Shown here in pieces: positions 8,108-63,459 of a DNA stretch of 64,000 nt (within the stretch, counting starts at the first letter, position 1; each line of letters begins with the position of its first letter). This DNA is from Owenia fusiformis. Taxonomy: Eukaryota; Annelida; Polychaeta; Sabellida; Oweniidae. The position numbers and the translations under genes are program-made. The stretch is from NCBI GenBank assembly GCA_903813345.2, contig CAIIXF020000006.1:36368436-36432435 (forward strand). Direction: 5' to 3'. The notes beneath the pieces were generated by a model. That model was given only the letters and a program-made list of their open reading frames with translations, was not told the origin of the DNA and made no database searches.

Positions 8108-8374
8108 TAGTCTATTAATTTTGTTACCAATACCAATTTCAATTATGTTACCGATTTCCAGTTTCAAAAATATACTTTTATTATATTGTACATAAAATTA
8201 TTGGGGTTGAGCTGACTAAGGGTTGGGCTGACCAGTCTGGTTTAACTCAATTAGGTCGATTTGACTTAGGGTTGTGTTGACCAGGGAGCAAGTCATTTGG
8301 TACCTCCAAATAAACAACTTTTTGGTGTGAACAATTTTGAAATGTGTATGCAATTTCATATTTTTTATCAAGGC

Positions 8375-15000: not shown

Positions 15001-18000
15001 CAAGCAAAAACCTGTATTTTATTGACAGTGTAGTGTTTTTGAAAAAAGCCTGTCAAAATCATAAAATTGGAAATGTTGATATAATATTCATTTCCCATGA
15101 TGGAAATTGTCTCTAGAATAAATCTTGAAAATTTCAATAAGAATGGTTGTTCCATTGCAAATATAGAGTAAAACATGACTGCATGCATCATTCAACCTGT
15201 CGGGGGTACTATAAAAATGTATTAAAAAAGTCTAGCCATGCAAATCAAAACCATTCTCTACCCATGCCAATTAAATTCTATTTGGTAATACCAGGTCGTT
15301 CAATAATATATCATTACTTTCCACTCAACATACCTTGTAAGAGGAGTTTTTGATTCATTTTCCCATTTGACAATCGTGGTGAGATTCCTCAAGAGTTTAT
15401 ATACATCCGCAGATGAAGTAGTCCCTTTTCCCGTGAGTAAGGATAACGTTGACATGATGTTTAGTAAGACCGCAGGAAGGCGTATTTCTATCTCTCGTTG
15501 TAGCTGGATAAACACTCCCAGCTGAAGCAAATAATAGTTCTTTATCATTGTGTTAATTCCATATAGTAAATGCTATACAATACAATACAATACAATACAA
15601 TACAATTCAATACAATATAGTTTGTTTCGCAACATTAGTGGAATACTGCAATATCAGTTATCATATAATTTTCAGTGATAACTTCTTATCGATTAGTTAT
15701 CATTGTCGCCATAATAAGCGTAGTTTATTTTGACTCCAAAATTTAATGTTATTTTCTGACTAATTGAATGTTATTTTCTGACTAAATGAATTTTATTTTC
15801 TGACTGAAGTTTCTTAAATAACAAAACATTAACTAGATTATTTGCCTTTACTTGTGATTCGGTGGATATATTGAGTAATAAAAATGCCAGGATATGGTTA
15901 ACGCACGCCAGTCCATTATACCACCCCACACATGCTAGTATCTGGATCAGCCAACGTTTACACCTGAAAGAAAACAAGAAATATTTTGTATATTTTGGAA
16001 ATCATAGGATATTCATTTCTGCTTCTATGTTAATTATTAGCTGGTGAATTCTATGAAGTTCCCTAGAAATAGTGTTCAGTACTCTATTCATTAAATAGGA
16101 AGTTGTTAACTAAAGGAAGGTACTTAACATGAGAGTCAATGGGAGAAAATATTTAAAGTACAAAAAAGTTCACTGTATGATGTACATTACTATGTAGTCT
16201 GACTAGTATAAAGTACGCTATGTGCTTTTTAATTTGCAGTAAAACATGTCTTAGTGAACACCTGTCTCTAGTGAACACCTGTCTCTAGTGAACATCTGTC
16301 TCTAGTGAACACCTGTCTCTAGTGAACACCAGTCTCTAGTGAATACCTGTCTCTAGTGAACACCTGTCTCTAGTGAACACCTGACCATAAAGAACACTAT
16401 TTCTCAGCACACGAACCAGTGTGAACTTCTATAGTGAACACGTACATAGCATGGCTTCATAGGTGTTCAATATATACAATACAATACTGTAGCGTTTTTA
16501 ATGAACATTAGAGGGACATTAGAAATTGCCTCGAGTTATGATAAAAGTCAGCTTTATGAAAAGTAAACACTTTATACTAAAGATCAGTAGTGGATTAACT
16601 ATCTTTAGATTATGAGATATTTACACATCAAATGGATTCTTATAAGCTTTATATCATTCATACTTGGGAAATACCTGTACATATGTTATCATTCCCCTCA
16701 TATGAGCATTCTAAAATCAATGTTAACTCCACATCCGCGAACGACAAAACACATCAAAGAGAAATCCAGACACGAAACAATGAAAGAAAGGAAAGAGAAG
16801 GTTTTGGAGTACAATGCACTGTATGACCTCAGCTCAAAATTCACAGCAGATACTGACAATGTTGCAGTGCCGAACATCGTGCATTATATATGGGTCGACA
16901 AGGGGAAAGGAATTCCTTTTACATTTCTGAACGCTTTAAGCTTCTTTAGCGTCCACAACATTTGGAAACCACGAATAATATATATACATGCGAATCAGTT
17001 ACCAACAGGCCCCTGGTGGCAGCTTGTTGAACTAAACATCGGGAATATCAAGCATATAAAGATTGACGACACACAAGTTAAGATTTATGGTAAAATTCCT
17101 CTTTACACTGAACATCTTACTGATATTCTACGACTTGAAATACTACAAGGTAACGTTTTTGTATATAGCATAATAAGAGGGTGTTATTAAGATCACCACT
17201 AGTGTCATGTCATTCTAAAAATTAAAAATTATTAAGGGTGATGTCATTTCATTCTAGGATTACTTGAAAGTATGAATATATTAACACAGATATCATATCA
17301 GGTCAGAAAACTGGTACATTTAATTGCTTCATACCATTTCATTTTTGCTCAATTGATGCATATACTGACACTGATGTCATTTCATTTTAGATTGTGGTGT
17401 TTATATTGACACTGATGTCATTTCATTTAAAATCATTGTAGTGTTTATATTGACATAAATGTCATTTCATTTTAAATTGTGGTGCTTATATTGACATTGA
17501 TGCCATTTTATTTTAGATTGTGGTGTTTATATTGACACTGATGTCATTTCATTTAACATTATTGTAGTGTCTATATTGATACTGATGTCTTTTTATTTCC
17601 CATTATTGTGGTGCTTATATTGACATTGATATAATTTCATTTCATTTCAGATTAAGTCATATTTGTATCGTCACTTGATTATGGTGGTGTTTATATTGAC
17701 ACAGATGTCACTTCATTTCAGATTATGGTGGTGTTTATTTTGACACAGATGTCACTTCATTTCAGATTATGGTGGTGTTTATATTGACACAGATGTCACT
17801 TCATTTCAGATTACGGTGGTGTTTATATTGACACAGACATCACTTCATTTCAGATTATGGTGGTGTTTATTTTGACACAGATGTCACTTCATTTCAGATT
17901 ATGGTGGTGTTTATTTTGACACAGATGTCACTTCATTTCAGATTATGGTGGTGTTTATATTGACACAGACATCACTTCATTTCAGATTACGGTGGTGTTT

Positions 18001-21000
18001 ATATTGACACAGACATCACTTCATTTCAGATTATGGTGGTGTTTATTTTGACACAGATGTCACTTCATTTCAGATTACGGTGGTGTTTATATTGACACAG
18101 ACATCACTTCATTTCAGATTATGGTGGTGTTTATTTTGACACAGATGTCACTTCATTTCAGATTATGGTGGTGTTTATTTTGACACAGATGTCACTTCAT
18201 TTCAGATTATGGTGGTGTTTATATTGACACAGACATCACTTCATTTCAGATTATGGTGGTGTTTATTTTGACACAGATGTCACTTCATTTCAGATTATGG
18301 TGGTGTTTATATTGACACAGACATCACTTCATTTCAGATTATGGTGGTGTTTATTTTGACACAGATGTCACTTCATTTCAGATTATGGTGGTGTTTATTT
18401 TGACACAGATGTCACTTCATTTCAGATTACGGTGGTGTTTATATTGACACAGACATCACTTCATTTCAGATTATGGTGGTGTTTATTTTGACACAGATGT
18501 CACTTCATTTCAGATTATGGTGGTGTTTATATTGACACAGACATAATAGCAATGCGCCCATTATCCCCATTAAGACACTTTGGCCACACTCAGGGTATAG
18601 GCATGCTAGACAAGGGGCTTTCCAATGGTGTTATCCTTGCAAAACAAGGCTCTCCGTTCTTAAAGATATGGCATGAGGCCTATTGGACGTATGGACGCAT
18701 ACCCGACGATATCAACTCAACAGTGTGGAGGTATCACTCCATAGAACTACCTGGTACTTTACATAGCATATTCCCACGGATGATACACACGGAACAAACG
18801 GCACTCCTCGGACCGAAATATTTCCAATATGAAAACGAAACAATCAAAGAACGAACATGGCAGAAAAACTATTGCGTCCATATATGGAAGAGATTTACCA
18901 AGGTGCCTGAGCATCCTAATGATTTCAAATTTATATCGAAAACATCATTCGTCAGAGAGCTACTGGAATATGTGTGGTTTCAGCAAACAATCCCAATATT
19001 GAAGGAAGGCACGTATAAGATTGAAAGATGAGTTTTAGTTTTTTGAGAAATGTTTGAGAAAAGTCAACGACACTTCCAACGATAACGCTGTGAATCTCCG
19101 ACAGCTAGCCAATAATACGCTCATTTAACATAGCCTTAAAATCCCTTGAATGGCCAAGTGAGAGATATATCAGTCACATAATTTATCACTACAATTTTTG
19201 TTCCACGTAAGAAAGAAATATGGCAAAAGCAAGAAAAAATGCTGTGGTATTAGAGACGCTTTTTATGAAAAATTTGAAGTTAATGTGAAATTAGACCCCA
19301 AAATGGGAATATGATTTCATACTGTGATTGCAAATGCAATTAGGCTAAATCATATTTTATACCATGTTCTATTTACTGGTGAATAACACCATGAAATATA
19401 ATAGATATTGAAAAATTTCTCCTTCTGTCCCGTAGAAATTATCATATTGGCACTTATTATAAAACCCATATTCAATCCCTCCAAGTAAATAACCGTCCGT
19501 GTATTTGAATTTTCGCTAACTCGAACTCACAATATTTTCTGTCGAGTTAAGAGTTCCTAGAGATTGAAAATTGCCAATTACCTTGTGTCCGTAGACTCCA
19601 CCAACTTCAGACATAGTCTCTCTACATGCGGCTTCAATGACGACAACAATACAATCTCCTTTTCGTTGTCATGCTTACTCAAGATCTGACGCTCCAAGTC
19701 TAACAGCACCTTACTCTGAAATGCACAGAAATAAAGATTCAACCCCATAGCCAGCTTTTGCCAAGGGGGGTTACTTTTCAAAAATCCCAGGGGGCTCGTG
19801 TTTGACAACTTTGAACCAAAATCCACTTGAAGTGTTCAGAATAGTGAAAACCGCATTATTTTGAAAGATTTTTTAGTCCGGGTTGGGTTTCGCTCGTTCT
19901 TCTGATTAATTTTGTCCTGTTACCAAAAATTACAAATGTACAGGAGGGTAAAGATGGGTGTAAATGAATTAACAAGACACACGGTAATAAATATCGCACT
20001 TAAAATTCAAAATGACTGCCATGAAAATTACACAGCATGCCCAGAATTCGTACATGTACATTAATTTTGTAAAATAACTCGAGAATTACCTAGAATACAT
20101 AAACAAATAATTGCAAGTCTAGCAAAACTTGTATAATGCCTTCCATATTGGAATGAATTGTTCATTACAGACAGGTGTTCCATAATACAAGTTTTACTGT
20201 ACATGTATTCAATAGTTTAATTACTCACCAGAATGATAGTGCATGCTCTCTGTACAAGAGGGTTCACTTGACAACCATCTCCTAAAAGAAAGAGAGAGAT
20301 ATGGGCTACATAGCCCACATTATCATATCCCATAAGACTCACTTGTACATGTCTAATGTGTGATTATTATGGAATTTGACACTTATGTGTCAGATTGTTA
20401 TGGGATTTGACACTTGTGTGTCCTGTAAGATCACTATGGGATTTGACATTTATGTGTCAGCTTATTATGGGATTTCTATATAATGTTAATAATTTATGCC
20501 CCCTTTTAACCTCTTGAATACCCAGAGTGACGGATATATCCGTCACAAATGAAATAAGACTGGTGCCCAGAGGGACGAGAAAATCCGTCACAAAATTTTT
20601 CACAAAAATTGCTCTCATTTGAACAATTTTCATCCAATTTACACAAAAATTGTTTTAAAACGTGTAGAAATGATCTCTGCCGTCCAATATTACTCAGCTG
20701 AGCATCTAAAGTTGTAAATGTCAAAAGGTGGCAAAAAATGAAAAATTCTCTGGTTTCATGCCAATTTTAGAGCCTGGGATGCAAGAGGTTAAACAAAGTT
20801 TGGTGTATACTAAGAACATCCATATTTTAATCAAACTTTTGTTATTTGTTATCAGTGCTTTTAAACTCAGCTGTATTTAATAGGTAAATCATATACTGAA
20901 CACAGTTTACTTGCACCAAGCCCCCCCCCCCCCTCTGGTCCCAGGTGCATGCATGCTGGGTGGGCAAAAAGGAGAAGGGCCTTGATGCGGGACTAACAAA

Positions 21001-24425: not shown

Positions 24426-24803
24426 TTAAACCATATCAACATCAGAGTAGAAGGAATATTCAGATTCAACATCAGAATCATGAGACTCCATTTGGTCAAC
24501 TTTGCTCTTGAGCTCTTCAACTACAGCAGCCATCTCAGTTGCATAGTGGTAGAACATCATCTTCATGTTGCTGAGAGTGGATAGTTGTAGTCGCAGGGAG
24601 TAGCGCTGAGCCTCTCTCTGGTTCTGCTTGGCTCGCTGGTAGCGGATCTCCAAATTCTTGGCTCTGTCATCAATCAGTAGCAGTTGGTCACAGGCTCTGA
24701 GGAACTTTCTGTATGCAACGTCAAGCTGCTCAGTGGTTTGCTCCCGATCAGAGTATTGTTCTCTCTCTGGCACTTCAGATTCTTGCATAGAGTAGGAATC
24801 CAT
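24426..24803 (-). CDS. Small helical protein of the tandem family, copy 1 (125 aa)
   Basis: Single exon with no intron, ATG at 24803. Not recognised as a known family. Conserved core: EQLDVAYRKFLRACDQLLLI, then IRYQRAKQNQREAQRYSLRL, STLSNMKMMFYHYATEMAAV and VEELKSKVDQ. The spacing of hydrophobic residues suggests long amphipathic helices, possibly a coiled coil. The C-terminus is acidic and Ser/Tyr-rich (SDVESEYSFYSDVDMV). It lacks four residues near the N-terminus that its sisters have. The mRNA would end at a histone-type stem-loop (24310-24325). A 1.33-kb transposon (24825-26155) separates the coding region from the family promoter, so this copy may be weakly expressed or silent. It is not a histone. 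Confidence 0.82.
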   Translation of the reverse strand: MDSYSMQESEVPEREQYSDREQTTEQLDVAYRKFLRACDQLLLIDDRAKNLEIRYQRAKQNQREAQRYSLRLQLSTLSNMKMMFYHYATEMAAVVEELKSKVDQMESHDSDVESEYSFYSDVDMV

Positions 24804-24824
24804 TGTGGTTGTGTGTTTAGAGTT

Positions 24825-26155
24825 CCCAGCCTATCGTCAGGCGCAATATTGGTCAATATTTGAGGTCTACTTTTGGTCTACTCATGAGGCGTACTTCTGG
24901 TCTACTTTTGGTTTTTCTCTGTGTTAAATCCCCATAGTCAGGCGCGTTTCAAATATTTAAATTAAGCCAAAAGTAGACCAGAAGTAGACCTCATTTAATG
25001 ACCTCATCAGGTTTATCAGGTCTATATTTGAGGTCTAGACCTCATTTAAGCCTCAACTATCTGTAAATCAGGTCTATATTTGAGGTATACTTTTGGTCTA
25101 CGCCTTATTTGAGGTTCACTATTGGTTTTCAGGTCTACTTCTCTTCTGCTTTTGGTGTACACCTTACGTTAAGGCACATTTCAATTATGGAAATTAGGCC
25201 TGAAGGTCTACTTTTGGTCTAGACCTCATTTCAGGTACAAGCCTCATATACCTGTAAGTAAGGTCAGGTCATGTTTTGTTGTTTCAAAGTAGAAAAGTAC
25301 TTAGTACATATCAGTACCCTCCATAGTTGTTAAATAAATTGCATTTATTTTGAATTGCTGGGTTGTTTTCGAGGATTAACTTGTCTCATGGATAAGATAC
25401 AGATCTATGAACACATTAGAAGGATGAAGCAAAAATTACACAGTATTCTTATATAAATTATATGTAGGCTTCTAATATGATGTATTTTTGTTTCATCATT
25501 TAAATTTAACAATATTTCAATATTTTATTATTTTCAGACATCCTTCTTTAGGTTTCCCAGATTTTGATTATTTTTTTAAGTTCTGATAAAAACCATTAAT
25601 AGGGAGTTGAAAATACAGTTTACTGGTCTGTTAACCTAATATATTATAATCTGTCTCCTTCGTGATTCTGACAAAATACTACAGTAAGTGTGGCTTTTTC
25701 AGATTTATGTTTTCTAAGTTTTTAAAAAAATGTTTATCAGGTCTAGATTTGGTCATTTTATAAATGTTTAAGTTTTTAAGGCGCAGTTTTGGTCTATACG
25801 CCTGTCAGTGAGGTCTATTCTAAAATGTTCTTAGTTTATCAGGTCTAGATTTGGTCATTTTGAAAATTGTTCAAGTTTTTCAGGCGCACTTTTGGTCTAT
25901 ACGCCTTACAGTGAGGTCTATTCTAAAATCTTCTAAGTAAATGTGGTTTAGATTTGGTTTTTAAGGCGCAGTTTTGGTCTATACGCCTGAAAATAAGGTC
26001 TATAACTGGAATTAGTGTGAGTAAATGAGGCTAGGTTTTGGTCTAAGCCTTAAAAATACCTGTAAAAGAGGCATACTTTTAGTCTAGACCTGAAAGTAAG
26101 GCGCATTTAAGGTTAACTTTTGGTCTACGCCTCAAAAACCTGATGATAGGCTGGG
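24825..26155. mobile_element. DNA transposon-like insertion in the 5' leader of copy 1
   Basis: Terminal inverted repeats CCCAGCCTATCGTCAGG (left) and the complement of CCCAGCCTATCATCAGG (right). Sister genes show the uninterrupted site AGAGTTGTGATG, so the insert duplicated TT. The interior has no long reading frame and is filled with short repeats of TTTTGGTCTA, AGGTCTA and AAGGCGCA. Non-autonomous; superfamily undetermined. Confidence 0.85.
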
Positions 26156-27806: not shown

Positions 27807-28199
27807 TCAACTTTGAACCATATCATCATCAGAGTAGAAACAATATTCAGATTCAACATCAGAATCACGAGACTCCATTTGGTCAACTTTGCTCTTGAGC
27901 TCTTCAACTACAGCAGCCATCTCAGTTGCATAGTGGTAGAACATCATCTTCATGTTACTGAGAGTGGATAGTTGTAGTCGCAGGGAGTAGCGATGAGCCT
28001 CACTCTGTTTCTGCTTGGCTCGCTGGTAGCGAATCTCCAAATTCTTGGCTCTGTCATCAATCAGTAGCAGTTGGTCACAGGCTCTGAGGAACTTTCTGTA
28101 TGCAACGTCAAGCTGCTCAGTGGTTTGCTCCCAATCAGAGTGTTGTTCTCTCTCTGGCACTCCGTAGACTTCAGATTCTTGTATTGAGTAGGAATCCAT
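27807..28199 (-). CDS. Small helical protein of the tandem family, copy 2 (130 aa)
   Basis: Intronless, ATG at 28199. It has the full N-terminal form (MDSYSIQESEVYGVPEREQH), the conserved helical core with RACDQLLLIDDRAKNLEIRY and KMMFYHYATEMAAVVEELKS, and the acidic tail SDVESEYCFYSDDDMVQS. It belongs to the unit 27.6-29.65 kb that is a diverged duplicate of 33.6-35.5 kb. TATA and leader lie at 28200-28290 and two tandem stem-loops lie downstream. Function unknown. Confidence 0.85.
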   Translation of the reverse strand: MDSYSIQESEVYGVPEREQHSDWEQTTEQLDVAYRKFLRACDQLLLIDDRAKNLEIRYQRAKQKQSEAHRYSLRLQLSTLSNMKMMFYHYATEMAAVVEELKSKVDQMESRDSDVESEYCFYSDDDMVQS

Positions 28200-28290
28200 T
28201 TTGATTGTGTGTTTAGAGTTGTGATGTGATTGTTAGGCAAGTCAGATCAGTAATGACTTCAACTTGACTGCAAACAATATTTATATCACT
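28200..28290 (-). promoter_or_regulatory. Family promoter and leader, copy 2
   Basis: TATAAATA on the minus strand (28285-28278), about 30 bp before TCATTACT (likely start region), then the conserved leader GCCTAACAATCACATCACAA up to the ATG. Confidence 0.75.
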
Positions 28291-30291: not shown

Positions 30292-30678
30292 TCAAACCAT
30301 ATCATCATCAGAGTAGAAGGAATATTCAGATTCAGCATCAGAGTCCTGAGACTCCATTTGGTCAACTTTGCTCTTGAGTTCCTCAACTACAGCAGCCATC
30401 TCAGTTGCATAGTGGTAGAACATCATCTTCATGTTGCTGAGAGTAGATAGTTGTAGTCGCAGAGAGTAGCGCTGAGCCTCTCTTTGGTTCTGCTTTGCTC
30501 GCTGGTAGCGGATCTCCAAATTCTTAGCTCTGTCATCAATCAGCAGCAGTTGGTCACAGGCCCTGAGGAACTTTCTGTATGCAACATCAAGCTGCTCAGT
30601 GGTTTGCTCCCGATCAGAGTGTTGTTCTCTCTCTGGCACTCCATAGGCTTGCGATTCTTGCATTGAGTAGGAATCCAT
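30292..30678 (-). CDS. Small helical protein of the tandem family, copy 3 (128 aa)
   Basis: Intronless, ATG at 30678. Same architecture as its sisters: polar N-terminus (MDSYSMQESQAYGVPEREQH), helical core with EQLDVAYRKFLRACDQLLLI, KQNQREAQRYSLRLQLSTLS and ATEMAAVVEELKSKVDQ, and acidic tail SDAESEYSFYSDDDMV. It lies in the first of three direct tandem units spaced about 1735 bp (copies 3, 4 and 5). Frame and length are intact, so it is probably functional. Confidence 0.85.
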   Translation of the reverse strand: MDSYSMQESQAYGVPEREQHSDREQTTEQLDVAYRKFLRACDQLLLIDDRAKNLEIRYQRAKQNQREAQRYSLRLQLSTLSNMKMMFYHYATEMAAVVEELKSKVDQMESQDSDAESEYSFYSDDDMV

Positions 30679-30770
30679 TTTGATTGTGTGTTTAGAGTTG
30701 TGATGTGATTGCTAGGCAAGTCAGATCAGTAATGATTTCAACAAGACTGTAACCAGCATTTATATCATTT
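30679..30770 (-). promoter_or_regulatory. Family promoter and leader, copy 3
   Basis: TATAAATG on the minus strand (30764-30757), then AATCATTACTGATCTGACTT and the conserved leader. Confidence 0.7.
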
Positions 30771-32025: not shown

Positions 32026-32418
32026 TCACTCTTGAACTGTATCATCATCAGAGTAGAAGGAATATTCAGATTCAGCATCAGAGTCCTGAGACTCCATTTG
32101 GTCAACTTTGCTCTTGAGCTCTTCAACTACAGCAGCCATCTCAGTTGCATAGAGGTAGAACATCATCTTCATGTTGCTGAGAGTGGATAGTTGTAGTCGC
32201 ACGGAGTAGCGATGAGCCTCACTCTGTTTCTGCTTGGCTCGCTGGTAGCGAATCTCCAAATTCTTGGCTCTGTCATCAATCAGTAGCAGTTGGTCACAGG
32301 CTCTGAGGAACTTTCTGTATGCAACGTCAAGCTGCTCAGTGGTTTGCTCCCAATCAGAGTATTGTTCTCTCTCTGGCACTCCGTATACTTCAGATTCTTG
32401 TATTGAGTAGGAATCCAT
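32026..32418 (-). CDS. Small helical protein of the tandem family, copy 4 (130 aa)
   Basis: Intronless, ATG at 32418. Very close to copy 2 in its N-terminus (MDSYSIQESEVYGVPEREQY) and to copy 3 in its C-terminus (SDAESEYSFYSDDDTVQE), which looks like exchange between copies. Core helices are intact; YHYATEM is YLYATEM here. It sits in the second of three 1.74-kb tandem units. Confidence 0.85.
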   Translation of the reverse strand: MDSYSIQESEVYGVPEREQYSDWEQTTEQLDVAYRKFLRACDQLLLIDDRAKNLEIRYQRAKQKQSEAHRYSVRLQLSTLSNMKMMFYLYATEMAAVVEELKSKVDQMESQDSDAESEYSFYSDDDTVQE

Positions 32419-32510
32419 TGTGGTTGTGTGTTTAGAGTTGTGATGTGATTGTTAGGCAAGTCAGATCAGTAATGATTTCAACAAGACTGTAACCAGCATT
32501 TATATTATAT
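32419..32510 (-). promoter_or_regulatory. Family promoter and leader, copy 4
   Basis: TATAAATG on the minus strand (32504-32497) with a 5-bp TATAT expansion next to it, then the conserved leader. Confidence 0.7.
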
Positions 32511-33764: not shown

Positions 33765-34157
33765 TCAACCATAAACCATACCATCATCAGAGTAGAAAGA
33801 ATATTCAGATTCAACATCGGAATCATGAGACTCCAACTGGTCAACTTTGCTCTTGAGCTTTTCAACTACAGCAGCCATCTCAGTTGCATAGTGGTAGAAC
33901 ATCATCTTCATGTTGCTGAGAGTAGAAAGTTGTAGTCGCAGAGAGTAGCGATGAGCCTCACTCTGGTTCTGCTTGGCTCGCTGGTAGCGGATCTCCAAAT
34001 TCTTTGCTCTGTCATCAATCAGTAGCAGTTGGTCACAGGCCCTGAGGAACTTTCTGTATGCAACATCAAGCTGCTCAGTGGTTTGCTCCCGATCAGAGAA
34101 TTGTTCTCTCTCTGGCACTCCGTAGACTTCAACTTCTTGCATTGAGTAGGAATCCAT
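33765..34157 (-). CDS. Small helical protein of the tandem family, copy 5 (130 aa)
   Basis: Intronless, ATG at 34157. N-terminus MDSYSMQEVEVYGVPEREQF; the core is conserved except VVEKLKSKVDQL; acidic tail SDVESEYSFYSDDGMVYG. The 3' half of its unit matches copies 3 and 4; its 5' flank (array, spacer, 48-bp minisatellite, acidic/Cys-rich gene) instead matches the flank of copy 2. Reading frame is intact. Confidence 0.85.
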   Translation of the reverse strand: MDSYSMQEVEVYGVPEREQFSDREQTTEQLDVAYRKFLRACDQLLLIDDRAKNLEIRYQRAKQNQSEAHRYSLRLQLSTLSNMKMMFYHYATEMAAVVEKLKSKVDQLESHDSDVESEYSFYSDDGMVYG

Positions 34158-34250
34158 TGTGGTTGTGTGTTTAGAGTTGTGATGTGATTGTTAGGCAAGT
34201 CAGATCAGTAATGACTTCAACTAGACTGCAAACAATATTTATATCATTTT
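34158..34250 (-). promoter_or_regulatory. Family promoter and leader, copy 5
   Basis: TATAAATA on the minus strand (34243-34236), then TCATTACTGATCTGACTTGC and the leader to the ATG. Confidence 0.75.
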
Positions 34251-37249: not shown

Positions 37250-37340
37250 ATTAATATAAATATTTTTAGCAGTCTTGTTGAAGTCATTACTGAGCTGACT
37301 TGCCTAGCAATCACATCACAACTCTAAACACACAAACACA
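37250..37340 (+). promoter_or_regulatory. Family promoter and leader, copy 6
   Basis: TATAAATA at 37255-37262, then GAAGTCATTACTGAGCTGAC and TTGCCTAGCAATCACATCAC, up to the ATG at 37341. Confidence 0.78.
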
Positions 37341-37742
37341 ATGGATTCCTATATGCAAGAATCTGATATCGATAGGGTTTCAGAAAAAGAACAGAAACTC
37401 AATCTTGAGCAAACCACTGAACAACTCCATGGTGCCTACGAAACATTTGTCAGGGCTTGTGATCAGGTACTACTGATTGATGACCAAGTCAAAATGGTAA
37501 AGTTACAATTCAGAAGAGCCAAACAGGACCAGAACTTGAGAGATGCTCATCGCTACTCACTGCGACTGCAACTATCCACTCTCAGCAACATGAAGATGAT
37601 GTTCTACCACTATGCCACTGAGATGGCTGCTGTAGTTGAGGAGCTCAAGAGCAAAGTTGATCAGCTGGAGTCTCAGGATTCTGACGCTGAATCTGAATAT
37701 TCCTTCTATGCTGACCACCAGGATGAAGAAATGCAACAGTGA
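37341..37742 (+). CDS. Small helical protein of the tandem family, copy 6 (133 aa)
   Basis: Intronless and inverted relative to copies 1-5. More diverged at the N-terminus (MDSYMQESDIDRVSEKEQKL) and in the first helix (EQLHGAYETFVRACDQVLLI, KMVKLQFRRAKQDQ). From AHRYSLRLQLSTLSNMKMMF through ATEMAAVVEELKSKVDQLES it matches the others, including at nucleotide level, which suggests conversion. Tail SDAESEYSFYADHQDEEMQQ. A perfect histone-type stem-loop begins 26 bp past the stop. Confidence 0.87.
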   Translation: MDSYMQESDIDRVSEKEQKLNLEQTTEQLHGAYETFVRACDQVLLIDDQVKMVKLQFRRAKQDQNLRDAHRYSLRLQLSTLSNMKMMFYHYATEMAAVVEELKSKVDQLESQDSDAESEYSFYADHQDEEMQQ

Positions 37743-42845: not shown

Positions 42846-45800
42846 GCAATTTCTGCGCAAAGAGCTTTGAGGAGCAATTCCAAGAGAAGCATAAGCAACT
42901 AACATTAAAGTCATCATATCATAGCCACTGAATGAAAATACAAAGGTGGCCAACATGTAGCATGGTAATAGACAGGTGGCCAACATGGAGCATGGTAATT
43001 CACAGGTGACCAACATGGAGCATGGTAATTCACAGGTGACCAACATGGAGCATGGTAATTCAAAGGTGACCAACATGGAGCATGGTAATAAACAGGTGAC
43101 CAACATGGAGCATGGTAATTCACAGGTGACCAACATGGAGCATGGTAATTCACAGGTGACCAACATGAAGCATGGTAATACACAGGTGGCCAACATGGAG
43201 CATGGTAATTCACAGGTGACCAACATGGAGCATGGTTATAGACAGGTGGCCAACATGGAGCATGGTAATTCACAGGTGACCAACATGGAGCATGGTAATT
43301 CACAGGTGACCAACATGGAGCATGGTAATTCAAAGGTGACCAACATGGAGCATGGTAATAAACAGGTGACCAACATGGAGCATGGTAATTCACAGGTGAA
43401 CAACATGGAGCATGGTAATTCACAGGTGACCAACATGGAGCATGGTAATACACAGGTGGCCAACATGGAGCATGGTAATTCACAGGTGACCAACATGGAG
43501 CATGGTAATAGACAGGTGGCCAACATGGAGCATGGTAATTCACAGGTGACCAACATGGAGCATGGTAATTCACAGGTGACAAACATGGAGCATGGTAATT
43601 CAAAGGTGACCAACATGGAGCATGGTAATAAACAGGTGACCAACATGGAGCATGGTAGTTCACAGGTGACCAACATGGAGTATGGTAATTCACAGGTGAC
43701 CAAAATGGAGCATGGTAATTCACAGGTGACCAACATGGAGCATGGTAATACACAGATGGCCAACATGGAGCATCATAATAGACACATGTCCAACAAGGAG
43801 CGTAGTCATACACAGGTGGCCAACATGGAGCATGGTAATACACAGGTGGCCAACATGGAGCATTGTAATAGACACATGTCCAACAAGGAGTATGGTGATA
43901 CACAGGTGGCCAACATGGAGCATAGTAATAAACAGGTGACCAACATGGAGCATGGTAATTCACAGGTGACAAACATGGAGCATGGTAATTCACAGGTGAC
44001 CAACATGGAGCATGGTAATATACAGGTGGCCAACATGGAGCATGGTAATAGACAGGTGGCCAACATGGAGCACTATAATAGACACATGTCCAACAAGGAG
44101 CATGGTAATAGACAGGTGGCCAACATGGAGCGTGGACTGCCCAAAGCAAGGATAATATTGACCAGATGTGACCAAGTGAGAGGTTAGTTTGTATATTTTC
44201 ATCATTCTAAAATAAGTCTACTGCAAAAACTGCCGTTTTCCAAAAAAATCTCATGCAAAACTCCTTTTTTTCAAAAATCTCACGCAAAAACTATCATTTT
44301 TTCAAAACTCTACAGCAAAAACTACCATTTTTTATAACATTTACAGCAAAAACTTTTTTTGAATTTAAAAAAAAAGATTTCTGTAAAACTACCGTTTTAT
44401 TTCAAATCTATGGTTAAAACTCCATTGTTTTAAAACTCTGCCGAAAAAAACTGCCATTTTTCAAAATCTTGACAATTTCTGACAATTTTTACTATTGTTG
44501 TGTTAATTGTTTTTCTTACTTACTTACTTTCAGGGATTGTTGGGAAAAGGTTAGAGGCATGCATTGAAGAAAAGAAAAAAGAGAAGATCAAATCGAAAAA
44601 CAAACGTAACGTAGTAAATGGGATCCCGATCGCAATCCCAACAGAATCCTCTTCCAAGGTAAACTCTTCTCCGGAGTTGGAATTTGTAAGAAAGTCATCT
44701 TTAAATAATGTAAACATTTGTATACTTGAACTCATAAAACAGGAAGATAATGATGGATCTACTGATATGGTAAAGGCTGATGTCAACCAGGACAATGTTC
44801 TTGATAGTAATCAACAGTCACCAACAATATATGAAAACAGAAAAACAAACAAGGCTTTAACCAAACCAACAAAGAACATGAGAGGTAGAAAGAACAAGGT
44901 CAACATCATTAGATGTGATGTTTGTTCAAAAGAATCAGGAAGCAAATCAAAACTTGTAAGACATATGAGAACTCATACTGGTGAGAAAACATTTAAATGT
45001 GATATCTGCTTGAAAGTGTTCTCAGTTAAGTCATCTCTTACTACACACAAACACATACACACTGGTGAGAGACCATATAAATGTGATGTCTGCTCTAAGG
45101 CATTTTCACGAAGGAGTCTTCTTGTGAAACACAATCTCATACACACAGATGAAAGACCATATAAATACGATGTCTGCTCTGAAGCATTTTCAGAAAATTC
45201 ATCTCTAACTAAACACAAACTTATACACACAAGTGAACGCCCATATAAATGTGAAATCTGCATGAAATCATTTTTAAAAAAATCCTCTCTAACTCAACAC
45301 AATCGCATACACACAGGTGAAAGACCACATAAATGTGATGTTTGTTCGAAAACATTTTCACGAAGGAGTGATCTTGTTACACACAAACGGATACACACAG
45401 GTGAAAGACCATATAAATGTGATGTCTGCATGAGATCATTTTCACAAAACTCATCTCTAACTCAACACAATCTCATACACACTGGTGAAAGACCACATAA
45501 ATGTGAAATCTGCATGAAATCATTTTTAGAAAACTCCTCTCTAACTCTACACAATCGAATACACACAGGTGAAAGACCACATAAATGTGATGTTTGTTCT
45601 AAGGCATTTTCACGAAGGAGTCATCTTGTGACACACAAACGGATACACACAGGTGAAAGACCATATAAATGTGATGTCTGCTCTAAGGCATTTTCACATA
45701 GGAGTCATCTTGTGAGACACAAACGGATACACACAGGTGAAAGACCATATAAATGTGATGTCTGCTCGAGTGCATTTCATGAAAAATCAGCTCTTGTGAA

Positions 45801-46524
45801 GCACAATCGCATACACACTGGTGAAAGACCATATAAATGCGATGTCTGCTCTAAAGCATTTTTAGAAAATTCATCTCTAACTAAACACAAACTTATACAC
45901 ACAAGTGAACGCCCATATAAATGTGAAATCTGCATGAAATCATTTCTAAAAAAATCCTCTCTAACTCAACACAATCGAATACACACAGGTGAAAGACCAC
46001 ATAAATGTGATGTTTGTTCTAAAGCATTTTCACAAAGGAGTTGTCTTGTGACACACTATCGCATACACACAGGTGAAAGACCACATAAATGTGATGTTTG
46101 TACTAAAGCATTTTCACAAAGGAGTTGTCTTGTGACACACTATCGCATACACACAGGTGAAAGACCACATAAATGTGATGTTTGTTCTAAGGCATTTTCA
46201 CGAAGGAGTCATCTTGTGACACACAAACGGATACACACAGGTGAAAGACCATATAAATGTGATGTCTGCTCTAAGGCATTTTCAGATAGGAGTCATCTTG
46301 TGACACACAAACGGATACACACAGGTGAAAGACCATATAAATGTGATGTCTGCTCTAAGGCATTTTCAGATAGGAGTCATCTTGTGACACACAAACGGAT
46401 ACACACTGGTGAAAGACCATATAAATGTGATGTCTGCTCTAAGGCATTTTCACAAAGTGGAACTCTAGCTCAACACAAACAAATTCATAATAATAAAAAG
46501 AGTTTACAGAAAACTCAACTCTAA
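42846..46524 (+). CDS. C2H2 zinc-finger protein 1 with 38-unit N-terminal decapeptide repeat
   Basis: Exon A starts after TTTTTAG at 42846; coding starts at ATG 42985 and runs to 44182. Exon B is 44534-46524. Phase join gives about 1062 aa. Residues 1-380 are 38 exact-length copies of a decapeptide like [10 protein letters not shown]. Then comes [19 protein letters not shown], a basic stretch ([14 protein letters not shown]), an acidic linker ([16 protein letters not shown]) and 19 C2H2 fingers joined by TGERP-type linkers. Finger 4 has Tyr for its first Cys; fingers 17 and 18 are identical. A nuclear DNA-binding regulator is expected; target unknown. Just upstream an in-frame ATG-TAG (42955-42960) forms a minimal uORF. 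A paralogue lies at 53.5 kb. Confidence 0.85.
42955..44124 (+). repeat. 30-bp coding minisatellite, 38 in-frame units plus one with a stop
   Basis: Units CATGGTAATTCACAGGTGAC/CAACATGGAG vary but keep 30-bp length without any indel from 42985 to 44124. The unit before the start has TAG in place of GAG. Long open frames on the opposite strand are shadows. Confidence 0.95.
44210..44475 (+). repeat. Intronic repeat with GCAAAAACTACCATTTTT units
   Basis: Imperfect units of about 40 bp fill the zinc-finger intron up to its acceptor TACTTTCAG. Confidence 0.7.
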
Positions 46525-53647: not shown

Positions 53648-55063
53648 GTGAGTTTGTATTCATCATGGAATTAATTTTTTGAAACTTGAATCCAGTTCTC
53701 ATTTTAAAAATCAATTTCTAGCTGTCATGACGAGTTTAAAATGCAGGGCCCTAAAAGGATTGGTATCATTATGGTGAACTTTTTGAACACATGTTTCTCT
53801 TAAACAAGTCATCAAAAAATTATGTTAATATTACACATCATCAATTTAATGGTCATCTTTTGAATGGTAACAATTTAATTTGAAAAATATATACCTTTCT
53901 CTATATTGCTTTAGAAAATACATCAGACACTTCTTGTTCTTGGTATCATATGTTCGGAATGAAATGAAACATCTATCTGAACCTCATTTTAACAAAATCA
54001 AAAAAGCATCTTATTCATGAAATAAAAGGTTTAGTTTAATTTTTATCTATTTGGTTTTTTTTGAAAAATGTTGTATATGCTATTTTGGTCCAACAAGGTA
54101 CAGAAAGATATTTTATTTCATTCTCAAGAATTGATAGAAAGGAAAAACACAATTGCACTAGAAAAAAAAAGTTAACAAAAACAGTTATATAAAATATATA
54201 TAAAAATAATCCAATTGTTGTCAATCAGTCAATATTACATAAAGGGCCGTGTTTTTAAAGAATGTTTTCAATAATTTGTTTGAGAGAAAAGCATTGTTGA
54301 ATTCAGTTCACCATATCGATACCAATCTTTTCCAATTTTAGAAATGATATACTGTACCATGAAACAGTTGTTTTTACACCTGAACCCATCCTAATATAAA
54401 TGTGTGACTATTTTCTTCAACCAGATTGAAATCTCAAATTTTAGCCTCTATTATCTTGAAAACATGTTTTAAGATAGTAAAGGATTAATACTGAAACTCT
54501 GTCATGGTTGAATTCTTTAATACTTAAAATATGACCTTCACTTAAAACGCAATATGTGAACATATTTTATTTTTACATTATTCATACAACAGACAATATT
54601 ATAATTAGTTGAAGTAGTTATCAACTGTTTTTTCTGCATAATAAAAAAGCGCAAATGTAGTGTTAAAAAAAGTTGAACAAGGAATCGAACCACAGTCTTC
54701 GTCTTGGTCAGCCAGAATTCTCTACCCTAGAGCAGCAATCTAATCATGAAAATTAAGAGTAATTCTACGCTACTTATTCTAGTGTTAGTTAGAAGTCCAA
54801 TGATCACTTCGAACCAAGAAATGTTTTGGAAATAACTTGCAATCAAAGGAACAATACTCAAAATGAAATTTCCCCATTTGTTCATCATTATATATTTTCT
54901 CAAAATATCACTACCTCCCTCGGAACAACTTACAATGTTTCTATTGAAAGGTCATTGACAGCCTTAAACAGAATATTTTCTGATAATTTTGCTTTTGCAG
55001 AGTCACACTTTTAGGCTTTTACTATTGTTGCTTTATGTATTTTTATCACTTTTTCACTTTAAG
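53648..55063 (+). other. Intron of zinc-finger gene 2
   Basis: GTGAGT donor at 53648 and CTTTAAG acceptor at 55061-55063. It contains a weak tRNA-like relic near 54660-54745 on the minus strand; otherwise AT-rich. Confidence 0.7.
54660..54745 (-). pseudogene. tRNA-like relic (possible SINE head)
   Basis: Minus strand carries GGTTCGATTCC (B-box type) about 35 nt after TGCTCTAGGGTAGAG (D-arm like). T-stem pairing is poor and the acceptor stem is not closed, so it is not a working tRNA gene. Confidence 0.3.
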
Positions 55064-57540
55064 GGATTGTCGGGGAAAAGTTTGAGGCATGCAATGAAGA
55101 AAAGATTGAAGAGAAGAACAAATGGAAAAAGAAAAAGGAAGAACAAAGGAAATGGAAGGAAACAAATGGAATCCCATTCCCAACAGCATCATCTTCCAAG
55201 GCCAACTCTTCTACTGAGTTGGAATCAGCTATAAAGCCATCTCTAAATGATGGAAGTGTTTGTATACTTGAACTCATAAAACAGGAAGATAATGATGGAT
55301 CTACCGATGTGGTTACGGTTGATGTCAACCAGGACAATGTTCTTAATAGCAATCAACAGTCACCAACAATATATGATAATAGAAATACAAACAAGGCTTT
55401 AACCAAATTAACAGAGAACAAGAGAGGTAGAAAGAACAAGGACAAAATCATTAATTGTGATGTTTGTTCAAAAATATTTAGCAGCAAATCTGGACTTGTA
55501 ACACATATGCGAACTCATATGAGTGAGAAACCATTTAAATGTGATATCTGCTTGAAAGTGTTCTCAGTTAAGTCATCTCTTACTACACATAAATACATAC
55601 ACACTGGTGAGAGACTATATAAATGTGATGTATGCATGAGATCATTTTCAAAAAACTCATCTCTAATGAATCACAATCGCATACACACTGGTGAAAGAGC
55701 ATATGAATGTGATGTATGCTCGAGGGCATTTTCACGAAGGAGTTCTCTTGTGAGACACAATCGCACACACACTGGTGAAAGACCATTTAAATGTGATGTA
55801 TGCTCGAGGGCATTTTCACTAAGAAGTCATCTTGTGAGACACAATCGCACACACACTGGTGACAGACCATATGAATGTGATGTTTGCTCTAAGGTATTTT
55901 CATATAAATCATCTCTAACTATACATAATTGCATACACAGTGGTGAAAGAGCATATTAGTGTGAAATCTGCTCCAAGGTATTTTCAGATACTTCAACTCT
56001 AACTAAACATAAAGGCATACACACAGGTGATAGAGCATATCAGTGTGAAATCTGCTCCAAGGTATTTTCAGAGACTTCAACTCTAACTAAACACAAATGC
56101 ATACACACTGGTGAAAGACCATATAAATGCAAAATCTGCTCTCGGGCATTTTTGCAAAAGGGTAATCTTACTTTTCACAAATGTATACATACTGGGGAAA
56201 ACAAGTTCAAATGTGATATTTGCCACAAAGCATTTTCACAGAATTCACATCTTGTTATTCACAATCGCATACACACAGGTGAAAGACCATATAAATGTGA
56301 TGTCTGCTCTAAGGCATTTTCAGAAAGGAGTCATCTTGTGAAACACAATCTCATACACACTGGTGAAAGACCACATAAATGTGATGTTTGTTCTAAAGCA
56401 TTTTCACAAAGGAGTTGTCTTGTGACACACTATTGCATACACACAGGTGAAAGACCACATAAATGTGATGTTTGTTCTAAAGCATTTTCACGAAGGAGTC
56501 ATCTTGTGACACACAAACGGATACACACAGGTGAAAGACCATATAAATGTGTTGTCTGCTCGAGTGCATTTCATGAAAAATCAGCTCTTGTGACACACAA
56601 TCGCATACACACTGGTGAAAGACCATATAAATGTGATGTCTGCTTGAGTGCATTTCATGAAAAATCAGCTCTTGTGACACACAATCGCATACACACTGGT
56701 GAAAGACCATATAAATGCAATGTCTGCATGAGATCATTTTCACATAACTCATCTCTTACTATACACAATCGCATACACACTGGGGAAAGACCATATAAAT
56801 GTGATGTCTGCTCTGAAGCATTTTCAGAAAATTCATCTCTAACTCAACACAAACGTATACACACAGGTGAACGCCCATATAAATGTGATGTTTGCTCCAA
56901 GGCATTTTCACGAAGGAGTCATCTTGGGACACACAAACGGATACACACAGGTGAACGCCCATATAAATGTGATGTTTGCTCCAAGGCATTTTCACGAAGG
57001 AGTCATTTTGTGCGACACAATCTCATACACACAGATGAAAGACCATTTAAATGTGATGTATGCTCTGAAGCATTTTCAGAAAATTCATCTCTAACTCAAC
57101 ACAAACGTATACACACAGGTGAACACCCATATAAATGTGATGTTTGCTCCATTGCATTTTCACAAAGGAGTCATCTTGGGACACACAAACGGATACACAC
57201 AGGTGAACGCCCATATAAATGTGATGTTTGCTCCAAGGCATTTTCACAAATGAGTCATCTTGTGAGACACAAACGGATACACACAGGTGAAAGACCATAT
57301 AAATGTGATGTCTGCTCTAAGGCATTTTCAATAAGGAGTACTCTTGTGAGACACAATCGCATACACACAGGTGAAAGACCATTTAAATGCGATGTCTGCT
57401 CCAAGGCATTTTCACGAAGGAGTCATCTTGTGATACACAAACGGATACACACAGGTGAAAGACCATATAAATGCGATGTCTGCTCTAAGGCATTTTCAAT
57501 AAGGAGTACTCTTGTGACACACAATCGCATACATACATAA

Positions 57541-58150
<610 letters not shown>

Positions 58151-63039: not shown

Positions 63040-63132
63040 AGACTGATATAAATACTTGTTTCAGTCTAGTTGAAGTCATAACTGATCTGACTTGCCTAGC
63101 AATCACATCACAACTCTAAACACATTTATAAA
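63040..63132 (+). promoter_or_regulatory. Family promoter and leader, copy 8
   Basis: TATAAATA at 63047-63054, AAGTCATAACTGATCTGACT about 30 bp on, then the conserved leader to the ATG. Confidence 0.75.
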
Positions 63133-63459
63133 ATGGATTCCTCAGCGATGATAAAATCTGATGTCCGCAGAGCGGCAGAAGAAACACACCACATTGATCT
63201 GGATCAAGTGGCTGAACAACTGGATGTTGCATACAGAAAGTTCATAAGGGCATGCGATCAGGTACTCTTGATTGACGACAAAGTAAAGATGGTGGAAATA
63301 CGATACAACAGAGCTAAGAAGAACCACAAAGAGGCACACTTGTACTCTCTGCATCTACAGCTAAATATACTGAATAACACGAAGATGATGTACTACCACT
63401 ATGCAACTGAGATGGCTGCTGTAGTAGAGGAGCTCAAGAGCAAAGTTGAACAGATATAG
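63133..63459 (+). CDS. Small helical protein family, copy 8 (108 aa)
   Basis: Intronless. N-terminus MDSSAMIKSDVRRAAEETHH differs from copies 1-6, but the core is clear: EQLDVAYRKFIRACDQVLLI, DDKVKMVEIRYNRAKKNHKE, AHLYSLHLQLNILNNTKMMY and HYATEMAAVVEELKSKVEQI. It ends at TAG without the acidic tail. After the TAG the same frame stays open for about 50 more codons (IQGVDNSLHTDDEYQ and on) into the stem-loop. Probably functional; role unknown. Confidence 0.85.
   Translation: MDSSAMIKSDVRRAAEETHHIDLDQVAEQLDVAYRKFIRACDQVLLIDDKVKMVEIRYNRAKKNHKEAHLYSLHLQLNILNNTKMMYYHYATEMAAVVEELKSKVEQI

Follow-up and report, generated by a model that had tools for sequence, protein, structure and literature searches.

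How the true start of an exon can be found when the intron in front of it offers nearly the same splice acceptor time and again is the question raised by a glycosyltransferase gene of the annelid Owenia fusiformis. The gene lies in a stretch of 64,000 nucleotides, referred to here as the window (assembly GCA_903813345.2, contig CAIIXF020000006.1, positions 36,368,436 to 36,432,435; focal coordinates are those of the window), and consists of two exons on the forward strand. The coding part of exon 1 (16612..17149) ends in CTACAAG in phase 1, with the donor GTAACG at 17150, and exon 2, which includes the stop codon, spans 18514..19031. Joining 16612-17149 to 18514-19031 yields a GT32-like glycosyltransferase of 351 aa, with 100% identity to an annotated O. 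fusiformis protein (P0001) recovered by database search; exon 1 covers residues 1-179 and contributes the first base to codon 180. Pfam Gly_transf_sug (PF04488) is recognized at 36 bits, compared to the curated cut-off of 23, and IDTD, with the DXD motif, lies at the start of exon 2. The product of exon 1 begins with an N-terminal hydrophobic stretch, judged by eye, that is likely to be a type II anchor; no relatives of the protein were detected by sequence in PDB at E 0.001.

The array in front of exon 2

The intron of this gene (17150..18513, forward strand) is made up mostly of tandem units that stem from the 3' end of the intron itself and the beginning of the exon that follows. Nineteen of these, each of exactly 44 bp and free of indels, fill positions 17678..18513 on the forward strand and directly adjoin exon 2 at 18514 (Tandem Repeats Finder, TRF: period 44, matches 94%), just as the first-pass annotation of the window had described, and its further claim, that the 3' splice site and the first codons of a DXD-bearing glycosyltransferase exon have been amplified, is likewise borne out. 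Each unit consists of 31 bases from the exon start followed by 13 bases from the intron end, which amounts to a tandem duplication of an intron-exon boundary. Each ends in CACTTCATTTCAG, and all 19 carry splice signals, namely, TTCATTTCAG and, upstream of it, the candidate branch-point motif TTGAC (a consensus match, at 18488..18492 on the forward strand for the last unit), whose A lies 22 nt before the intron end and at the same distance from all 19 acceptors. The candidate branch point falls within the codons for the I/F-D of the DXD motif. Given this anatomy, together with the homogenization of the inner units and the divergence of the array edge described below, the array is a real acceptor mirage, that is, a minisatellite grown from an acceptor boundary.

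The run of acceptors exceeds chance by far: the window has 20 occurrences of TTCATTTCAG, exclusively within 17641-18513, compared to a mean of 0.26 and a maximum of 2 when it was resampled 100 times under a first-order Markov model. The array acceptors are located at 17721 + 44n, the last being 18513. The first-pass annotation counted nineteen decoys, a number that holds if a separate TTCATTTCAG outside the array, ending at 17650, is included; the array itself contains 18, the acceptor of unit 19 being the real one, and the left edge of unit 1 has no acceptor (CACTTG|ATT). Four positions vary across the 19 units: position 5 (TAT/TAC, silent), position 18 (I/F), and positions 29-30 (TG/CA). Instead of the two alternating unit types that had been proposed, there are four haplotypes, in the order ABACBBDCBCBBDBDBBCB, followed by the exon, which is D; no four-gamete conflict was found among the three site pairs tested. 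There was no sign of a dispersed-repeat origin, as a 204-base query matched this locus alone among the scored genome candidates.

It is extremely improbable that all this reflects a collapsed or expanded assembly, the artefact against which the first-pass annotation wanted the array checked. Tandem arrays are prone to misassembly, and one amphioxus mirage appears, according to its description, to be aberrantly assembled in the genome draft (PMC3087553), but the O. fusiformis genome report gives PacBio reads with an N50 of 25.75-30.75 kb, far exceeding the 1.2-kb array, along with Illumina polishing (PMC9977687). The 19 units without an indel, the internal order of haplotypes, and the decayed flank likewise argue against an error, although the exact number of copies may yet be inaccurate.

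Which acceptor is used

Among the 20 acceptors, only 18513 yields the 351-aa protein, as the first-pass annotation had predicted. From 17 of the 18 array decoys, translation would reach a stop 36 codons past exon 1, giving 215 aa; the last-but-one array acceptor would lead to a stop after 25 codons (204 aa), and the extra TTCATTTCAG at 17650 to an immediate stop, AT-TAA, as read from the sequence. The decoys, if used, would be expected to produce truncated proteins ending soon after DXD, and their use would be recognizable at the exon 1 junction by ...GATGTCACTTC or GACATCACTTC, compared to ...GACATAATAG for the real acceptor. No good donor that could delimit microexons inside the units was found by a crude match count. 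Stops in a last exon are not expected to cause decay that depends on the exon junction complex, assuming that there is no intron in the 3' untranslated region; the annotated protein has no coding exon after exon 2, and the decoy stops would thus not trigger such decay.

The decoys are hardly distinguishable from the real site. The 23-mer from -20 to +3 is letter-identical in 12 of the 19 acceptors, the real one included, and the remaining seven depart from it at two bases; over -132..+31, a single base separates the decoy at 18293 from the real acceptor, and the other 15 decoys counted show 3 to 15 differences. With sequences this similar, local acceptor strength can hardly separate the real site from the decoys, and the information that marks it must reside farther into the exon (beyond base 31), in distance or position, or in the order of transcription. 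RNA structure gave no signal as a selector, the folding of 18338-18600 being unremarkable (z 0.29). As the decoys match the real site exactly or almost exactly, the last acceptor would most likely win via exon definition, guided by signals located past base 31 of exon 2 and not by acceptor strength. The inner CACAG of the unit fits the rule, as given in PMC1431707, that the first AG after the branch point is used and AGs closer than about 12-15 nt are bypassed.

The array would be tolerated since splicing mainly uses the exon-proximal acceptor, and the protein would thus be normal. Such usage appears to be supported by the annotated protein, which equals the last-acceptor product as judged from annotation and homology, by the intact open reading frame (ORF) of 351 codons with DXD and the conserved columns, and by the precedent of amphioxus, where boundary-spanning minisatellites reportedly leave regular splicing undisturbed (PMC3087553, PMC3902484). 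The same intact ORF makes it quite improbable that the gene is decaying, with its splicing already spoilt and its protein no longer of consequence. Stop codons are present in 8 of the 46 exon-wise genome matches of the gene (some of these may be intron read-through), and the family may lose members, but this gene is kept in an annotation that was built from RNA-seq models, Augustus, and PASA and that, as an annotation-wide figure, is described as having RNA-seq support for 31,678 of 31,903 transcripts (PMC9977687).

The first-pass annotation also raised the prospect of a copy-number switch, in which the array would act as a splicing attenuator, each added unit diverting a share of transcripts to truncated, catalytically dead proteins and so tuning expression. 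Such a switch is possible but unsupported, and we consider it unlikely: the equality or near equality of the decoys to the real site, the truncation caused by all 18 array decoys, and the normal variability of minisatellite length speak in its favor, but none of six database matches was a truncated isoform, although the length range searched included 204-215 aa. Furthermore, amphioxus mirages reportedly do not disturb splicing, similar arrays are present in EXT1-like and receptor-like genes (see below), where heavy loss would presumably be costly, and the location of the decoy stops in the last exon would not favor junction-dependent decay.

Growth, decay, and exchange

The 19 units recorded by the first-pass annotation are only the regular part of an older and longer array. 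A search with the unit profile (nhmmer) detected decayed copies between 17357 and 17644 (E < 0.02), along with a weaker copy at 17277 (E 0.027); in combination with alignments, these delineate seven decayed older units of 41-49 bp, cut by hand, at 17350..17650, followed at 17651..17677 by what appears to be a scarred partial unit that lost its acceptor (CACTTG), all on the forward strand. The exon-intron junction of the decayed units reads GATGT|C in four of the seven and AATGT, GATGC, or GATAT in the others; the AG is kept in three of the seven, and the last one, ending at 17650, retains TTTCATTTCATTTCAG. This like junction implies that the array probably had a single birth, with later re-homogenization of its exon-proximal part, the inner units being homogenized (four variable sites in 19) compared to the decayed units upstream. 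A tandem duplication would have fused base +31 of the exon to base -13 of the intron, thereby duplicating the 3' splice site together with the first 31 exon bases, and slippage or unequal exchange would then have extended the array upstream into the intron. What the sequence shows directly is the anatomy of the units, the like junction of the decayed distal units, and the homogeneity of the proximal ones.

Nothing comparable was found in the paralogues tested. Exon-wise matches of the focal gene number at least 46 in the genome; 15 paralogue stretches were taken, and all except L039 and L052 entered the boundary test, leaving 13. In all 13, the acceptor lies just before YGG, HGG, or EGG, and a matching exon 1 donor is plain in eight. 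Intron copies of the paralogue's own acceptor boundary are present in 0/13, whereas blast gave 28 hits within the intron of the focal gene, and none of the 11 tandem arrays (at least three copies, with a period of at least 20) in the 15 stretches overlaps any of the 32 matched exon segments. The donor boundary is not copied in any of the nine family members tested (the focal gene plus eight paralogues), the hits in L041 consisting of intron bases only. In L041, a GTATG pentanucleotide array begins exactly at the exon 1 donor, at about 2963 in gene orientation. An additional intron, possibly gained, seems to interrupt exon 2 of L046 (4504-5300) and L047 (5427-5543, both in gene orientation) after about residue 214.

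The paralogues also bear on exchange between exon and array, which turns out to be better supported than originally claimed. GACAT, next to the DXD motif, is found in the focal exon and in 7 of the 19 units, the other 12 units having GATGT; among the seven decayed units, four have GATGT and none GACAT; and in 12 of the 13 paralogues, V follows DXD (GATGT or GACGT), L043 having GACAT. The best explanation of a derived codon pair common to the exon and seven units appears to be exchange between exon and array since the array arose, which suggests that catalytic-motif codons of an exon exchange variants with a non-coding array. Given that L043 also has GACAT, an independent origin of this codon pair in the focal gene is not impossible.

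Further arrays in the genome and known systems

The same growth process acted at other acceptors of the O. fusiformis genome, in five more genes. Three TTTCAG spaced 30-60 bases apart occur at 8,199 places in the genome, and the reversed pattern at 2,698, the counts being inflated by long arrays. The 100 listed TTTCAG places, which reach 2.84 Mb on chromosome C1, form 16 clusters as counted by eye; ten tandem arrays were examined, and six clusters were left out (three of a palindromic TTTCAGTAC family and three lone matches). Five of the ten span the start of a coding exon. In L057, 22/22 upstream copies span the exon start, with up to 34 exonic bases; the exon has no Pfam match by itself, but in combination with the exon before it the match to relaxin receptor 1 (3e-37) runs across the junction. 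L058 (9/9 upstream copies, up to 34 exonic bases) matches Neur_chan_LBD (1.1e-14) and the glycine receptor (1.4e-18), and is GlyR/GABA-R-like. L062 (11/13, up to 21 exonic bases) matches GT64 with its exon alone (6.5e-8) and, with the next exon, exostosin-1 (EXT1) at 4.1e-37. L059 (17/17, up to 21 exonic bases) has an open exon with a GTAAGT donor and no Pfam match, and L056 (13/13, 15 exonic bases) has a weak match to Sushi (E 4.4e-4, just above the cut-off). Decoy read-through into the exon is open in 3/11 cases in L056 and 2/9 in L058, one in each being in frame with the exon, and in none of those in the focal gene (0/20), L057 (0/18), L059 (0/17), and L062 (0/10).

The other five examined arrays (L053, L054, L055, L060, L061) are without a demonstrated mirage; in L053 (560-1620), 18 boundary-like TTTCAG sites (CCCTGTTCTTTCAG) are spaced at 55 bp, and no recognizable exon follows. 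In the reversed-pattern control, four arrays up to C1:2.45 Mb showed no exon-boundary pattern by TRF and ORF inspection without a Pfam scan, a weak control in that two of the four filled the stretch, leaving edges partly unseen; within these 2.45 Mb, eight tandem arrays from the TTTCAG list were examined, and four of them are mirages. A 55-bp tandem array at C1:256000-263300 (G000) is at least 7 kb long. By rough extrapolation, 5 mirages per 100 listed places, multiplied by 8,199, give about 400 (Poisson range roughly 130-960), a figure that covers one hexamer and spacing and excludes other acceptor sequences. That this genome holds hundreds of acceptor mirages, produced by a process that repeatedly grows minisatellites from 3' splice sites, with exon definition rather than strength or first-come order picking the exon-proximal site despite long series of sequence-identical acceptors upstream, is a proposal that we advance tentatively, as plausible but falling somewhat short of probable.

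Taken as a whole, the locus is best explained, with high probability in our judgment, as a mirage-type minisatellite in which the last acceptor is used, variants are exchanged between exon and array, and the underlying process is the same as at other acceptors. Several considerations weigh against this explanation. An Augustus-type prediction could pick the last acceptor for the sake of the ORF alone, which makes the annotation weak proof, and first-come kinetics would favor the upstream acceptors. In the decayed units, AG bases have changed in 5 of 14 cases, compared to 24 of 265 other bases (p 0.009, becoming 0.03, 0.08, or 0.12 with one or two decayed units dropped), which hints at some cost of decoys. 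Finally, L056 and L058 each hold one in-frame decoy from which reading stays open as far as exon base 60, so that decoys elsewhere are not always nonsense. Selection against decoy AGs is suggestive in the old focal units only; in the five other mirages, the AG is kept in 72/75 copies, a count biased by the use of TTTCAG to select them.

The window contains further repeats and genes. Seven ORFs of a short protein family (MDSY..., LDVAYRKFLRACDQ) are located around the glycosyltransferase gene, five on the reverse strand (24426-24830, 27807-28232, 30292-30711, 32026-32451, 33765-34190) and two on the forward strand (37308-37742, 63100-63459); the two that were scanned had no Pfam match. Tandem units of 84 bp occupy 44990-46480 and 55523-58063, and the ORFs 44473-46524 and 55063-55959, both scanned, encode C2H2 zinc-finger proteins. 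Forty 30-bp units at 42937-44135 are open on both strands over 400 codons. Eight 17-bp units (TGTCTCTAGTGAACACC) are found at 16247-16383, about 230 bp upstream of the start codon, and other 17-bp arrays at 2040, 3035, 31646, and 33384.

The recurrence of acceptor mirages in this genome is a more interesting result than the focal array. Models of 3' splice-site choice (branch-point scanning, kinetic first-come, exon definition) differ in what they predict for runs of identical acceptors, and 19 acceptors with no more than two bases of difference over -20..+3, together with at least five other genes, provide a natural test of splice-site choice. In Dscam-type clusters, many acceptors compete for one donor, and each choice is a productive alternative exon. 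The focal array shares this multi-acceptor, one-donor layout but differs in that only the last acceptor gives the full protein, none of the 18 array decoys (0/18) preserving the ORF.

The focal array is a case of a known kind, the mirage minisatellite, not a new kind. Minisatellite-like tandem duplications of the intron-exon boundary have been described in the amphioxus globins BflGb6 and BflGb9 and in Adh3 (PMC3087553), with PGBD5 added later and TnC also reported as an amphioxus mirage (PMC3902484). As far as these descriptions go, amphioxus mirages and the focal array share many units with splice signals, homogenized inner units, and diverged edges. Human internal tandem repeats (PMC2812944) are similar in that a minisatellite at an exon-intron boundary can alter splicing, but they are tied to new introns or retained variants, whereas the focal exon is unchanged. 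A literature search, with most subscription papers outside its reach, found no annelid mirage, and the new features here are the annelid host, the 19 near-identical units accompanied by about eight decayed ones, and the derived DXD-adjacent codons common to the exon and seven units. Boundary-spanning minisatellites are extended beyond the lancelet and human cases found. BflGb6, as described, carries 6 or 3 units, 150-160 bp long and 81-100% alike, whereas the annelid array has 19 units of 44 bp that vary at four sites, along with decayed older ones, and, compared to the amphioxus mirages as they are reported, the real acceptor here is almost indistinguishable from its decoys.

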